Assembly (NCBI RefSeq): GCF_007744075.1
Contig: NZ_CP036266.1
Coordinates: forward strand, 5,503,748-5,567,747
From: Gimesia chilikensis
GTDB taxonomy: Bacteria; Planctomycetota; Planctomycetia; Planctomycetales; Planctomycetaceae
DNA: 64,000 bases
Direction of reading: 5' to 3'
The first letter of the stretch is position 1. Each line of letters begins with the position of its first letter. Shown in pieces: positions 19,199 to 25,490 of this stretch. Position numbers and translations under genes: made by a program. Below the pieces are notes generated by a model, which did no database searches, was not told the origin of the DNA, and saw only the letters and a program-made list of their open reading frames with translations.

Positions 19199-19317
19199 TT
19201 CTTTATCACGTGATCTGGACCAACCGGGAAGATGTGAATAACGTTTCCTTTTGGAGAGATAAAAGGGGTCAGCGACAATCCTGTGCGGCACAGTTAATGC
19301 TACCTTTATAAATTCAC

Positions 19318-19363
19318 CGCGAATAGAGAGGTTTCGTGTATTTCGTGACGTTCGTGGTTTGTA
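19318..19363. repeat. Possible dispersed intergenic repeat
   Basis: TTCGTGTATTTCGTGACGTT followed by CGTGGTTTG, with TTCGTG recurring. I associate such strings with intergenic copies in planctomycete genomes, but only one copy lies in this window. Confidence 0.3.
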
Positions 19364-19415
19364 AATTGGTCAATCTGCAGACAGGAAGGCGCGTTGACCG
19401 CTTGAGACATCTGTT

Positions 19416-19502
19416 ATGCCACGAGCAAAGCGCGCCGAGATTGAAGAACAGGACATCACCGGGCTGAAGTACTTCCGTCAGTTGGGAAAACTGGGGACAA
19501 AT
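19416..19502 (+). pseudogene. N-terminal fragment of a transposase, cut by the RAYT element
   Basis: Starts ATG and reads MPRAKRAEIEEQDITGLKYF then RQLGKL, which I recall as the opening of IS4-like transposases in planctomycetes. The frame then runs into the left end of the 19503-20248 element and loses meaning. No continuation is found on the other side of the element, so the rest was deleted or never present. Confidence 0.38.
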
Positions 19503-20248
19503 AAAGGGGTCAGGACTCTTTTCTGGTGCGTGGTCTGCCTCGGGGTCGGGTGGTGCTTTCTAGTGACAGCCTTTGGGCGGTGTTGCTGGCCCATTTTTCG
19601 TTGCCGAAAGGAGTGCCGCGGACAATGCATTTTCGCAGGGCGGCCAGTTCGGCGTCGGTCTGGGGTTTGTTAACCAGGGCCCGCCAGTTTCGAGGCAGCG
19701 GCGGATTCTTGAGTGGCGCCAGCCATTCCGGCTTAACTTGCTTCTGCTGCCGGGCCCAGGCGGAGCCAAACTCCCACTCTTCTGCTTTCTTGACCAGATT
19801 CGCCCGCAACGGATTTCGTTCGACATAACGCATGACGGTCAGTAAATGGTCGTCCGATTGAATCGGAAACGATTTGAAGCGTCCCTGATAGAGATGCCCG
19901 GTGCCGCCCGTCGCGTAATGAGCGTGCCAGCGCATCGTGTGAGTCACGGTGAGCCATCGGAAGAAGTCCGTCAACTGGGTATCTGTCGTGGGCCGCACAA
20001 CAAAGTGCCAGTGGTTGGGCATCACAGACATCGCAAAGATCGGCAGCGGATTCTTCTGCCACGTCTCCTCGACGACTCGCATGAACGCAGCATAATCGTC
20101 CGGCTTCTCAAACAGAGTCAGCCGCGCAACAGACCGGTTCAGCACATGAAACACCTCACCGGCAGGACAAATTCGTTTGGCTCTAGGCATGTCCCAAGTC
20201 TAGCAGAAACCAGTGAGAATGAAAACAGAAAAGAGTCCTGACCCCTTT
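19503..20248 (-). mobile_element. RAYT (IS200-like) element, copy 1, 746 bp
   Basis: Bounded by 22-bp perfect inverted ends at 19503-19524 and 20227-20248 (AAAGGGGTCAGGACTCTTTT plus two bases). It carries one transposase gene. The same ends bound a second copy and a short non-autonomous derivative nearby. No obvious target duplication is seen, as expected for single-strand HUH transposition. Confidence 0.85.
19510..20190 (-). CDS. REP-associated tyrosine transposase (Y1/HUH, IS200-like)
   Basis: 226 residues. The HUH-type metal site is NHWHFVV with His60 and His62; the catalytic Tyr is most likely Tyr122 in RYVERNPLRANLV, the signature of the RAYT branch of the Y1 transposases. The enzyme nicks and rejoins single-stranded DNA at hairpin ends. 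The Arg-rich C terminus (RPRGRPRTRKES) is unusual in that its last residues and stop codon are encoded inside the element's own terminal repeat. Seven residue differences separate it from copy 2. All key residues are intact, so it may be active. Confidence 0.92.
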   Translation of the reverse strand: MPRAKRICPAGEVFHVLNRSVARLTLFEKPDDYAAFMRVVEETWQKNPLPIFAMSVMPNHWHFVVRPTTDTQLTDFFRWLTVTHTMRWHAHYATGGTGHLYQGRFKSFPIQSDDHLLTVMRYVERNPLRANLVKKAEEWEFGSAWARQQKQVKPEWLAPLKNPPLPRNWRALVNKPQTDAELAALRKCIVRGTPFGNEKWASNTAQRLSLESTTRPRGRPRTRKES

Positions 20249-20295
20249 TTATCCTCAGATATAGAAATACATGTCGCAGTGATCACTATGTTTTC

Positions 20296-20811
20296 TCAAT
20301 CACTTTTTCCCTTGAAAGGGTCATCTGTTGGCCCGACTTTGCCATACCTTAATCTTGATTTTGGATCTCCCAAAGCTTTTGCCCATATCTCATATAACTT
20401 TTCTCTCTCAGTTGTTTTATACTCAATTTTATATTTTGTCTTCTTGGAAGACTCTAATTGAACTGACATTCCATACCATAAAGGGTAATTATCTGTAACC
20501 TCGAAGGGAGGGCCCCAATGAAATACCAGTATGACATGACAGATCGCAAAACGATCTTTATTCATCAGATTTTTCAAAAGCCATTTTTCATCATCCCTTG
20601 TAATGTCTTTCAAATACCGGTCAGCTCGCTCTGAAATTTGTGGTTCCAGACCGAAAAAAGTTCCATGCCAAATCACATCCGAGTTGTCTAATACTGGATC
20701 CCCCCTTTTGGAGAATGGTTTATTGCTACTATTGATACACGCTGTTGCTATCGCAGTACTAATAATACAAATTAGACAATAGATTGAGAAAACTAATCTT
20801 TTTGTTAGCAT
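20296..20811 (-). CDS. Secreted or lipid-anchored hypothetical protein
   Basis: 171 residues. The N terminus is a signal sequence with a hydrophobic core (about 5-24) and TACINSS, a possible weak lipobox at Cys25. The mature part is charged and contains HWGPPFEVTDNYPLWYGMSV, typical of small planctomycete secreted proteins of unknown role. It is visibly richer in A+T than the flanking RAYT elements, and lies between the two copies. No family recognised. Confidence 0.63.
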   Translation of the reverse strand: MLTKRLVFSIYCLICIISTAIATACINSSNKPFSKRGDPVLDNSDVIWHGTFFGLEPQISERADRYLKDITRDDEKWLLKNLMNKDRFAICHVILVFHWGPPFEVTDNYPLWYGMSVQLESSKKTKYKIEYKTTEREKLYEIWAKALGDPKSRLRYGKVGPTDDPFKGKSD

Positions 20812-20837
20812 GGTTTACCTCTCATTTGTGGATAAAT

Positions 20838-21583
20838 AAAGGGGTCAGGACTCTTTTCTGGTGCGTGGTCTGCCGCGGGGGCGGGTGGTGCTTTCCAGTG
20901 ACAGCCTTTGGGCCGTGTTGCTGGTCCATTTTTCATTGCCGAAGGGAGTGCCGCGGACAATGCATTTTCGCAGGGCGGCCAGTTCGGCGTCGGTCTGGGG
21001 TTTGTTGACCAGGGCCCGCCAGTTCCGTGGCAACTGCGGATTCTTGAGTGTCGCCAACCATTCCGGCTTAACTTGTTTCTGCTGCCGGGCCCAGGCGGAG
21101 CCAAACTCCCACTCTTCTGCTATCTTGACCAGATTCGCCCGCAATGGGTTGCGTTCGACATAACGCATGACGGTCAGTAAATGGTCGTCCGATTGAATCG
21201 GAAACGATTTGAAGCGTCCCTGATAGAGATGCCCGGTGCCGCCCGTCGCGTAATGAGCGTGCCAGCGCATCGTGTGGGTCACGGTGAGCCGTCGGAAGAA
21301 GTCCGTCAACTGGGTATCCGTCTTGGGTCGCACGACAAAGTGCCAGTGGTTGGGAATCACGGACATCGCAAAGATCGGCAGAGGATTCTTCTGCCACGTT
21401 TCCTCGACGACTCGCATGAACGCAGCATAATCGTCCGGCTTCTCAAACAGAGTCAGCCGCGCAACAGACCGGTTCAGCACATGAAACACCTCACCGGCAG
21501 GACAGATTCGTTTGGCTCTAGGCATACCCTAATTTTAGCAGAAACCAGTGAGAATGAAAAGAATTAAGAGTCCTGACCCCTTT
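20838..21583 (-). mobile_element. RAYT (IS200-like) element, copy 2, 746 bp
   Basis: Same length and arrangement as copy 1. The left end is identical to that of copy 1 over 22 bases; the right end (AAGAGTCCTGACCCCTTT at 21566-21583) has diverged in its inner part (AATTAAGAG in place of AAAAGAG). The right flank CTGTTC is shared with the flank of the MITE at 22571-22677. Confidence 0.83.
20845..21525 (-). CDS. REP-associated tyrosine transposase, copy 2
   Basis: 226 residues, differing from copy 1 at seven positions: Met57 to Ile, Thr68 to Lys, Trp79 to Arg, and four more in the C-terminal half (Lys to Ile in NLVKIAEEW, Pro to Thr and Pro to Gln in WLATLKNPQLPR, Ala to Thr in EKWTSNT). The HWH site and Tyr122 are unchanged. 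Gene and element ends are placed exactly as in copy 1, so the two arose from one another or from a common recent source. The plus-strand frames over it are shadows. Confidence 0.92.
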   Translation of the reverse strand: MPRAKRICPAGEVFHVLNRSVARLTLFEKPDDYAAFMRVVEETWQKNPLPIFAMSVIPNHWHFVVRPKTDTQLTDFFRRLTVTHTMRWHAHYATGGTGHLYQGRFKSFPIQSDDHLLTVMRYVERNPLRANLVKIAEEWEFGSAWARQQKQVKPEWLATLKNPQLPRNWRALVNKPQTDAELAALRKCIVRGTPFGNEKWTSNTAQRLSLESTTRPRGRPRTRKES

Positions 21584-21648
21584 TTCTGTTCTTAAAGCAA
21601 CTACCGCAGCGTATCTTGATTGTCCGCATCAACGATTTGAGAAGTACT

Positions 21649-22386
21649 TCACGGCCAGAATGTCTGCTGATGATGATCGAAGTCCACTGCTGGGTATCCT
21701 GTACTCAGAATCTTTAACCCTTTCCAAAGGGATATCTGTCTTACGTCTACTCCAGTAAGAGATGTCTGTTCTGCCAGCAGACGCCCCAAGCGTGGAAAGA
21801 GTAAATGAATTATTTCAATTGAAGCCCCAGATACACGTGTTTCACTGACATCCAGTGAAGACAGCTCTGGAAAGACAGATTGTCTGCGCTGCTGATCTTC
21901 GAAAACAACTTCGGATCTAAATAGATCAAGTCGCTGGAGCGTCTGCTTACAATTCAAATTTTGAATTGTCGCATCGCATGCATTGGTCTCCGGTAAAGCC
22001 AAATGAGTAAGATTTTGGTGACGGCATATCCATTCTTTTGAGACTGCATCCAGGAATTGCTGACGAACAGTCAGTTTCTTTAACTCTGGAAAATCTTGAA
22101 TCCTAACAACATCCACTAGATTATCCGGAGAATGATAGAGAATTAAATAATCCAGTTGCTTTAGGGAATCTATCGTTAGCATTTCCAGTAAGGACTGCTG
22201 ACAGTTCCGTAACACTAATTGTCGCAACTTGGGCAATCTCAGGGGTGCCTTAAATCTCATTCCTGCTGACTCAGGTGTCACATTCAGCGATTCAACTTCG
22301 ACCATGCGATGCTGCTCTACCGCATTCGGCTCCCTGGTAACCGAGGCAGCAAGTCTGTTCTCACCGAAAGAAAAGAGATCAACCAT
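21649..22386 (-). CDS. Leucine-rich-repeat-like hypothetical protein
   Basis: 245 residues with no signal peptide. From about residue 35 onward there are irregular LRR-type strands: LPKLRQLVLRNC, LKQLDYLILYHS, FPELKKLTVRQQ, NLTHLALPETNACDATIQNL, LQRLDLFRSE and FPELSSLDVSETRVSGASIE, about seven in all. Likely a protein-binding solenoid. The N terminus VDLFSFGENRL resembles a short string near 15.85 kb. Its place behind the toxin/immunity cassette, separated by the MITE, makes an immunity or accessory role conceivable but unproven. Confidence 0.68.
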   Translation of the reverse strand: MVDLFSFGENRLAASVTREPNAVEQHRMVEVESLNVTPESAGMRFKAPLRLPKLRQLVLRNCQQSLLEMLTIDSLKQLDYLILYHSPDNLVDVVRIQDFPELKKLTVRQQFLDAVSKEWICRHQNLTHLALPETNACDATIQNLNCKQTLQRLDLFRSEVVFEDQQRRQSVFPELSSLDVSETRVSGASIEIIHLLFPRLGRLLAEQTSLTGVDVRQISLWKGLKILSTGYPAVDFDHHQQTFWP

Positions 22387-22570: not shown

Positions 22571-22677
22571 AAAGGGGTCAGGACTTTTTTCTGGCGCGTG
22601 GTCTGCCTCGGGGTCGGGTGGTGCTTTCTAGTGACAGACTTTTGCAGTGTTAAAGAGAAAAGAGTCCAGGCCCCTTT
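22571..22677. mobile_element. 107-bp non-autonomous MITE derived from the RAYT element
   Basis: The left about 75 bases match the left end of RAYT copy 1 with only a couple of differences, including the stretch GGTGGTGCTTTCTAGTGACA where copy 2 has TTTCCAG; then it jumps to the right terminal repeat (AGAAAAGAGTCCAGGCCCC at 22656-22674). The transposase gene is deleted except for its last codons. It could be moved by the transposase of either full copy. Confidence 0.82.
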
Positions 22678-24680: not shown

Positions 24681-25490
24681 TCACGGTAGTCGATTAAATT
24701 GCTTGAAATGAAACCTGCTAAACGATTTCATTTCCATGCTGTCATTCACATCCGCATCAGAAGCTGGCAATTCTGCCTTTGCCTCCTCATGCATCGGATT
24801 TGATCTCATGATTCCTTCCCCGAGTTTGAGCTGGCTGATGAGCTGATCCCCAACCGCTTTCTCCTCTGATGCCTGGAATGGGGTTACTGAAGAAGCAAGA
24901 GCAACAGGCTGCTCCTGTTGTGCTTCCGCACCTGCCAGCCAGAACAGGCTGCCGGAAAGTAACAGCGAACCGAGCAGACACAGTAGACCAACCAGGCTCA
25001 ACCCGCCGGACAGCCGCGATTTCGTTTTCCGTTTCGCAGATGGTTTGACTTTTGTCGCTGAGGTCAATGATTCGCTCTGCCGAGGCAAACCATCGGCCCG
25101 CTGATCTCTGCTCTGTGCACGAGGGACAGCCAGCAGCGGCCCCGGTTCTGTCCGTCCTGCATGGTCGGTGGCACGCTGAATCAGACCATAGGGAGAGCCG
25201 GCTTTCCGGGTGAAATCGATCTGGGGATGCCAGAGTTCTTTGAAATCGTTCTCGATAAACAGTTCGTCCAGCTGTGAGACGGGTAACTGCTGTTTCCGCT
25301 TCTTCTTCTCAAGCAGTCCGAAACCGGTCAGACCGACGGGGATCGACAGGGCCGCCAGGAAGACAATGGAGAGATTCCATTCCGCACTGAGTTCGGAATC
25401 GGGGAGAATCCCTGCGAACTCCGGTTCTGTTTGCAGTTCTGCAGGGACAACCACCAGCGTGTCGGCAACGAAACAGCCTCCGGGATTAGG
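24681..25490 (-). other. Truncated pretoxin tail of the giant protein
   Basis: Reads GGCFVADTLVVV (the Cys block that opens a HINT domain), a membrane helix NLSIVFLAALSIPVGLTGFG, a basic/polar linker, a second helix GLSLVGLLCLLGSLLLSGSL, then LISQLKLGEGIMRSNPMHEE and about 35 unrelated residues before the stop. The later HINT blocks (TxxH and HN) and any toxin domain are absent. Confidence 0.82.

Follow-up and report, generated by a model that had tools for sequence, protein, structure and literature searches.

The question raised by this locus is whether an insertion element closes its transposase gene inside its own terminal repeat by rule or by chance, and, if by rule, whether the DNA end or the protein end sets the shared bases. 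Transposase stop codons in or at the repeats are known from other insertion sequence families. In the analysed window, i.e. the whole stretch of 64,000 nucleotides from Gimesia chilikensis, two transposase genes ended with the codons AAA GAG TCC TGA (KES and stop), the TGA being situated inside the right repeat AAGAGTCCTGACCCCTTT, as had been read in the initial annotation and was seen at both copies. Each gene was flanked by inverted repeats of the form AAAGGGGTCAGGACTCTTTT, ca. 20 bp in length, and six matches to the repeat at up to three mismatches were identified in the window, with 0.00 expected on the basis of 100 shuffles. The genome comprises one contig of 8,289,354 bases, in which two PF01797 matches were obtained at an E-value of 0.001.

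Table 1. Location of the predicted elements, their genes and repeats, and associated features in the window.
Feature	Coordinates	Strand	Remarks
Predicted TIRYT element, copy 1	19503..20248	-	746 bp repeat to repeat, repeats included; outer limits predicted
Predicted TIRYT element, copy 2	20838..21583	-	746 bp repeat to repeat
Y1/HUH transposase gene, copy 1	19510..20190	-	226 aa; HWH at residues 60-62, Y122; stop TGA 19510-19512 within repeat
Y1/HUH transposase gene, copy 2	20845..21525	-	226 aa; stop TGA 20845-20847 within repeat
Repeat at 3′ end of gene copy 1	19503..19522	+	Codes tail KES and stop on the - strand
Repeat at 5′ end of gene copy 1	20229..20248	-	Non-coding for the transposase
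Repeat at 3′ end of gene copy 2	20838..20857	+	
Repeat at 5′ end of gene copy 2	21564..21583	-	2 mismatches to the 20-base form
171-aa ORF between the two copies	20296..20811	-	No Pfam or NCBIfam match; one sister genome codes for a protein of 99% identity
Non-autonomous derivative, 107 bp	22571..22677	.	Two repeats (1 and 2 mismatches) and ca. 80 bp of the 3′ end of the gene

Both transposases matched Pfam Y1_Tnp, and the residues H60, H62 and Y122 were invariant in all 12 and all 37 sequences of two alignments, those of the window among them. The predicted protein model was closest to TnpA-REP bound to the REP hairpin (PDB 4er8), which was the nearest by sequence too, followed by ISDra2 and IS608; because these are the nearest solved folds, a single-strand Y1 reaction is likely. 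Helices were modelled at residues 179–188 and 198–207, and no Pfam match to a helix-turn-helix was obtained. Confidence in the model was lower at the very end of the protein, with mean pLDDT values of 56 and 59 for residues 211–226 (blocks of 10 and 6 residues) versus 88.7 overall. Directly before the repeat-encoded residues, a conserved basic stretch RPRGRPR was identified, which resembles an AT-hook; one of the four proteins tested (L132) was matched by Pfam AT_hook with an E-value of 0.018 and 15.3 bits, under the cut-off of 17.4.

The single repeat of the window folded no better than shuffled sequences (z −0.74), and its reading as a hairpin or terminator was rejected on this ground. Folding was somewhat better for the GGTGTCAGGAACC repeat type (z −2.1, with 9 of 200 shuffles equally good), and very strong for a 46-bp repeat pair from elsewhere in the same genome (z −9.7). 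Clustered palindromic pairs of the window's repeat, 46 bp long and REPIN-like in appearance, were located at 2.570–2.581 Mb of the genome (L054), and these pairs contain a short spacer that was not seen in the transposase element.

The two transposases differed at seven residues, which is the count given in the initial annotation, but its description of the copies as near-identical hides 30 differences within 681 nucleotides, 22 of them at third codon positions. Comparison of copy 1 with copy 2 resulted in dN of 0.014 and dS of 0.14–0.16, and due to this dS range the recent movement proposed at the outset is not upheld; the divergence fits an old split with purifying selection acting on the copies. 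It is rather the copy number across the genus that suggests mobility of the family, with 0 to 10 transposase matches per genome, some of them fragments, and a match in 16 of the 17 genus genomes, that of the window included. Over the phylum, 112 of 392 genomes returned a match at an E-value of 1e-20 in a search with up to seven candidates scored per genome, and the relatives were taken among the matches listed.

Position of the stop codon was compared in relatives and the window by reducing 242 matches to 107 distinct full-length genes, of which 77 had an inverted repeat scoring at least 12. Rows were dropped as duplicates in 62 cases, as partial genes in 61, because of internal stops in six, because of closeness to the locus end in six, and because no repeat scored at least 12 in 30. 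As the source scan of genome contigs covered the best 80 of 429 relatives, the 77-gene sample is weighted to near relatives. The stop overlapped the right repeat in 61 genes, preceded it in 14 and was beyond it in two, of which one (L134) continues into the flanking DNA and the other (L158) had no stop up to the end of the locus examined. In the overlapping class the stop codons were TGA (51), TAA (7) and TAG (3). The early stops were separated from the repeat by 0, 1, 1, 5, 9, 10, 11, 11, 12, 14, 16, 31, 39 and 53 nt; stops inside the ends, named in the initial annotation as the case that would speak for chance, do thus occur in 14 of the 77 genes, 11 of them only 0–16 nt before the repeat. 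Overlap of stop and repeat therefore appears to be frequent and to have been retained repeatedly, without being obligatory. No inverted repeat scoring at least 12 was detected in 30 of the 107 full-length relatives, and in eight of these 30 CCTGA was still found at the stop.

Relatives outside the phylum were obtained by a plasmid search (12 records), and six from other phyla were examined. The gene stopped at the TGA of its own repeat in two of the six, in Pseudoalteromonas (L250; the alignment fell on the second tandem repeat copy, and the stop position was taken directly from the sequence) and Legionella adelaidensis (L253). In the other four, the stop was not inside a repeat: the gene of Acetoanaerobium (L252) continues across the repeat and terminates at the outer edge of the latter, in Rhodospirillum (L254) and Iodobacter (L249) the repeat starts 6 and 61 nt, respectively, downstream of the first stop codon base, and in Skermanella (L251) a convincing repeat was not found (score 10).

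In the 45 relatives with TCAGG-type repeats, the core TGA of CCTGA served as the stop in 42, the exceptions being L033 with an in-frame stop 9 nt upstream, L159 with an upstream stop and the TGA out of frame, and L158, which runs past. Among the 32 relatives whose repeats are of other types, the stop was found to overlap the repeat in 18, to precede it in 13 and to follow it in one. The distance between the conserved GRP motif and the TGA was a multiple of three in 43 of the 45 TCAGG-type relatives, with eight different in-frame lengths (12, 15, 18, 21, 24, 30, 33 and 39) and the exceptions of 38 and 58; taking the distinct lengths as trials, eight of ten are multiples of three (binomial P 0.003), a rough figure, as the lengths are not independent. 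At 80% protein identity the relatives were reduced to 50 representatives, including 22 of TCAGG type (20 with the stop overlapping the repeat, one after and one before it), and on the 50-row tree, which was built without the tail, TCAGG-type ends needed nine changes (gains or losses), with at least six forced by well supported branches.

Shared descent explains the conserved frame in part; among the 77 relatives many are close, and eight of the 22 TCAGG-type representatives fall into one supported branch (100/100). Nevertheless, it is improbable that the frame relation arose once and was merely carried along as an inherited accident, with the stop position under no selection, when the linker occurs in eight in-frame lengths, the TCAGG-type ends are distributed in several separated clades of the tree, and the overlapping stops include all three codons at different places in different repeat types.

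Which partner follows the other was indicated by the left repeat, which does not code for the transposase. The residue before the stop was Ser (TCC), Thr (ACC) or Ala (GCC) in the rows compared, and its first base was complementary to the matching base of the left repeat in 39 of 43 rows and in 18 of 21 representatives; in one of the 43 rows (L159) the stop is not at the core and the agreement with the left repeat is incidental. Since the last residue mostly tracks a non-coding sequence, the tail residues are apparently dictated by the DNA end, and not the reverse. The claim that the final residues and the stop are encoded by the end of the element, and by more than chance, is accordingly borne out by the core TGA, the conserved frame and the agreement with the left repeat. 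It could be supposed from the basic, AT-hook-like stretch directly before the repeat-encoded residues that the tail is needed for recognition of the same repeat, in cis action or autoregulation, which is very improbable, as the tail residues vary with the DNA (ES, ET, GS, DS, GA or none), some relatives lack them, and residues 211–226 were modelled at mean pLDDT of 56–59.

We consider it highly probable that the two copies represent compact TIRYT-type insertion elements, in which the gene runs to the element end and compaction comes with a built-in stop. The 3′ repeat would then have two jobs, first as a DNA end, probably recognised and cut by the transposase, and second as translated sequence, and of the three frames, translation would use the one that is closed by the core CC-TGA-C. 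The tail residues may be fixed by selection acting on the ends at the DNA level, and selection against read-out into host DNA, rather than descent alone, may keep the frame, so that the end of the protein would be independent of the insertion site. An extension of this reading is put forward with more doubt than belief, namely that the outer octamer of TIRYT ends (reverse complement CTGACCCC) is a portable stop, that ends and frame co-evolve, an in-frame stop being regained in or at the edge of the repeat after a change of end type, and that the tandem copies of flank and outer half-repeat, which many elements have at one end, record nicks made in the outer half.

The tandem copies were observed as direct repetitions of flank and outer repeat part at 30 of 146 ends, in 27 of 73 elements (e.g. 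L161, L140, L087 and L114), when a control with swapped outer flanks resulted in a mean of 4.0 and a maximum of 10 in 100 runs. By a second rule 29 ends were found, and in 25 of these the copied repeat part was 10 nt or shorter. Such copies could be footprints of nicking or slippage.

Empty sites in sister strains had been suggested as a check, and clean ones were sought but not found, the sister-genome comparisons resulting in rearranged or otherwise occupied sites. From 22 copies tried, 20 yielded two flanks, one of them (G004d) with a wrong right end, and the joined flanks had no match across a junction in loci L001–L182 and the window. The right flank of the window itself returned only short matches in sister genomes, none longer than about 110 bases. 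One copy borders on a stretch of gene with homologues that continue uninterrupted at four other places, and another borders on a DDE transposase gene whose sequence continues elsewhere, in both cases without both flanks being clean. In one relative, a 2,049-bp segment was common to two places, and one of its ends was a right repeat.

A DDE-type insertion sequence with the end AATCCTGTTCGGCC was found next to TIR-like GGTCAG or CCTGACC at eight of ten ends, which were picked by eye from 19 contexts; the contexts included window positions 19261–19290 and the loci L231, L238, L026, L039 and L008. At L231, GTCCTGACC was present at both ends of the DDE-type element, as if it had been inserted into such a repeat.

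Between the two copies in the window, the block 20252–20849 with the 171-aa ORF was 99.5% identical over 598 bp in one sister genome (G014), where the sequences on both sides differ. A composite transposon carrying this ORF was not supported, as the 2.1–2.3 kb around each of the six weaker homologues examined, out of seven, contained no repeat of the present type when up to one mismatch was allowed. Farther along the window, one ORF of 13,065 codons with repeated domain-like stretches covers positions 24681–63878 on the minus strand.

In the TIRYT reading, ca. 20 bases are under two demands, as DNA end and as protein end, and the demand of the DNA would win. The rule that the stop is in or next to the repeat helps in drawing the borders of TIRYT elements, which are seemingly little studied, and the relatives form a natural variant set for dissecting the separate roles of tail and ends. 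The frame rule was not encountered in the literature read, and we make no claim of its being unpublished. No paper on stop codons inside insertion sequence repeats was among the matches listed, none of the matches listed for RAYT with Planctomycetes or Gimesia held the RAYT term, and the search for RAYT with AT-hook gave unrelated papers only.

Among known systems, members of IS200/IS605 (IS608, ISDra2) share the Y1 transposase fold. However, known members are described in a passage of PMC2817692 as lacking terminal inverted repeats, when the Gimesia element has 20-bp ones; their transposase recognises subterminal structures, according to a passage of PMC6006769; and the Gimesia protein is longer, with a C-terminal extension.

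RAYT, or TnpA-REP, proteins have the same HUH-Y1 core (HUH and Tyr) and provide the nearest solved fold (4er8), and REPs frequently follow the rayt stop codon immediately or are situated very near to it, as stated in a passage of Nunvar 2010 (PMC2817692). The Gimesia ends, in contrast, are inverted repeats and not the GTAG-type REPs that define RAYTs, and several copies per genome were present in the relatives. The naming of the elements as RAYT in the initial annotation does not hold in the strict sense: scores against NCBIfam REP_Tyr_transpos were 66.9 and 63.2 bits, below the 80-bit cut-off, and beside the genes no GTAG-type REP hairpin was found, as none of the 24 GT[AG]G motifs at window positions 19200–22000, both strands, had a stem (perfect, 6–12 bp, loop 2–10, starting within 3 nt of the motif).

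Judged from sequence, the elements belong to the TIRYTs (“TIRtrons”), a known kind here identified in Gimesia. TIRYTs and their GGGGWSAS ends were named by Di Nocera et al. 2013 (PMC3733652), and legends of that paper already mark cases in which repeat and 3′ gene end overlap (“3′ov”); its section on TIRYTs and legends do not discuss the built-in stop, the frame rule or the tail following the left repeat. A related observation in the same source is that GTAG REPs often supply the stop codon to neighbouring ORFs, and a passage of PMC6006769 ties TIRYTs to subclass 2.1, with a C-terminal helix-turn-helix extension. As in the TIRYTs described in that section of PMC3733652, a RAYT-like Y1 transposase is located between terminal inverted repeats, the GGGGWSAS motif is present as GGGGTCAG in all four repeats of both elements, and the repeats are also dispersed in the genome as singles and pairs, with 21 sites at up to two mismatches, those of the elements included, and one site for a backward-pattern control.
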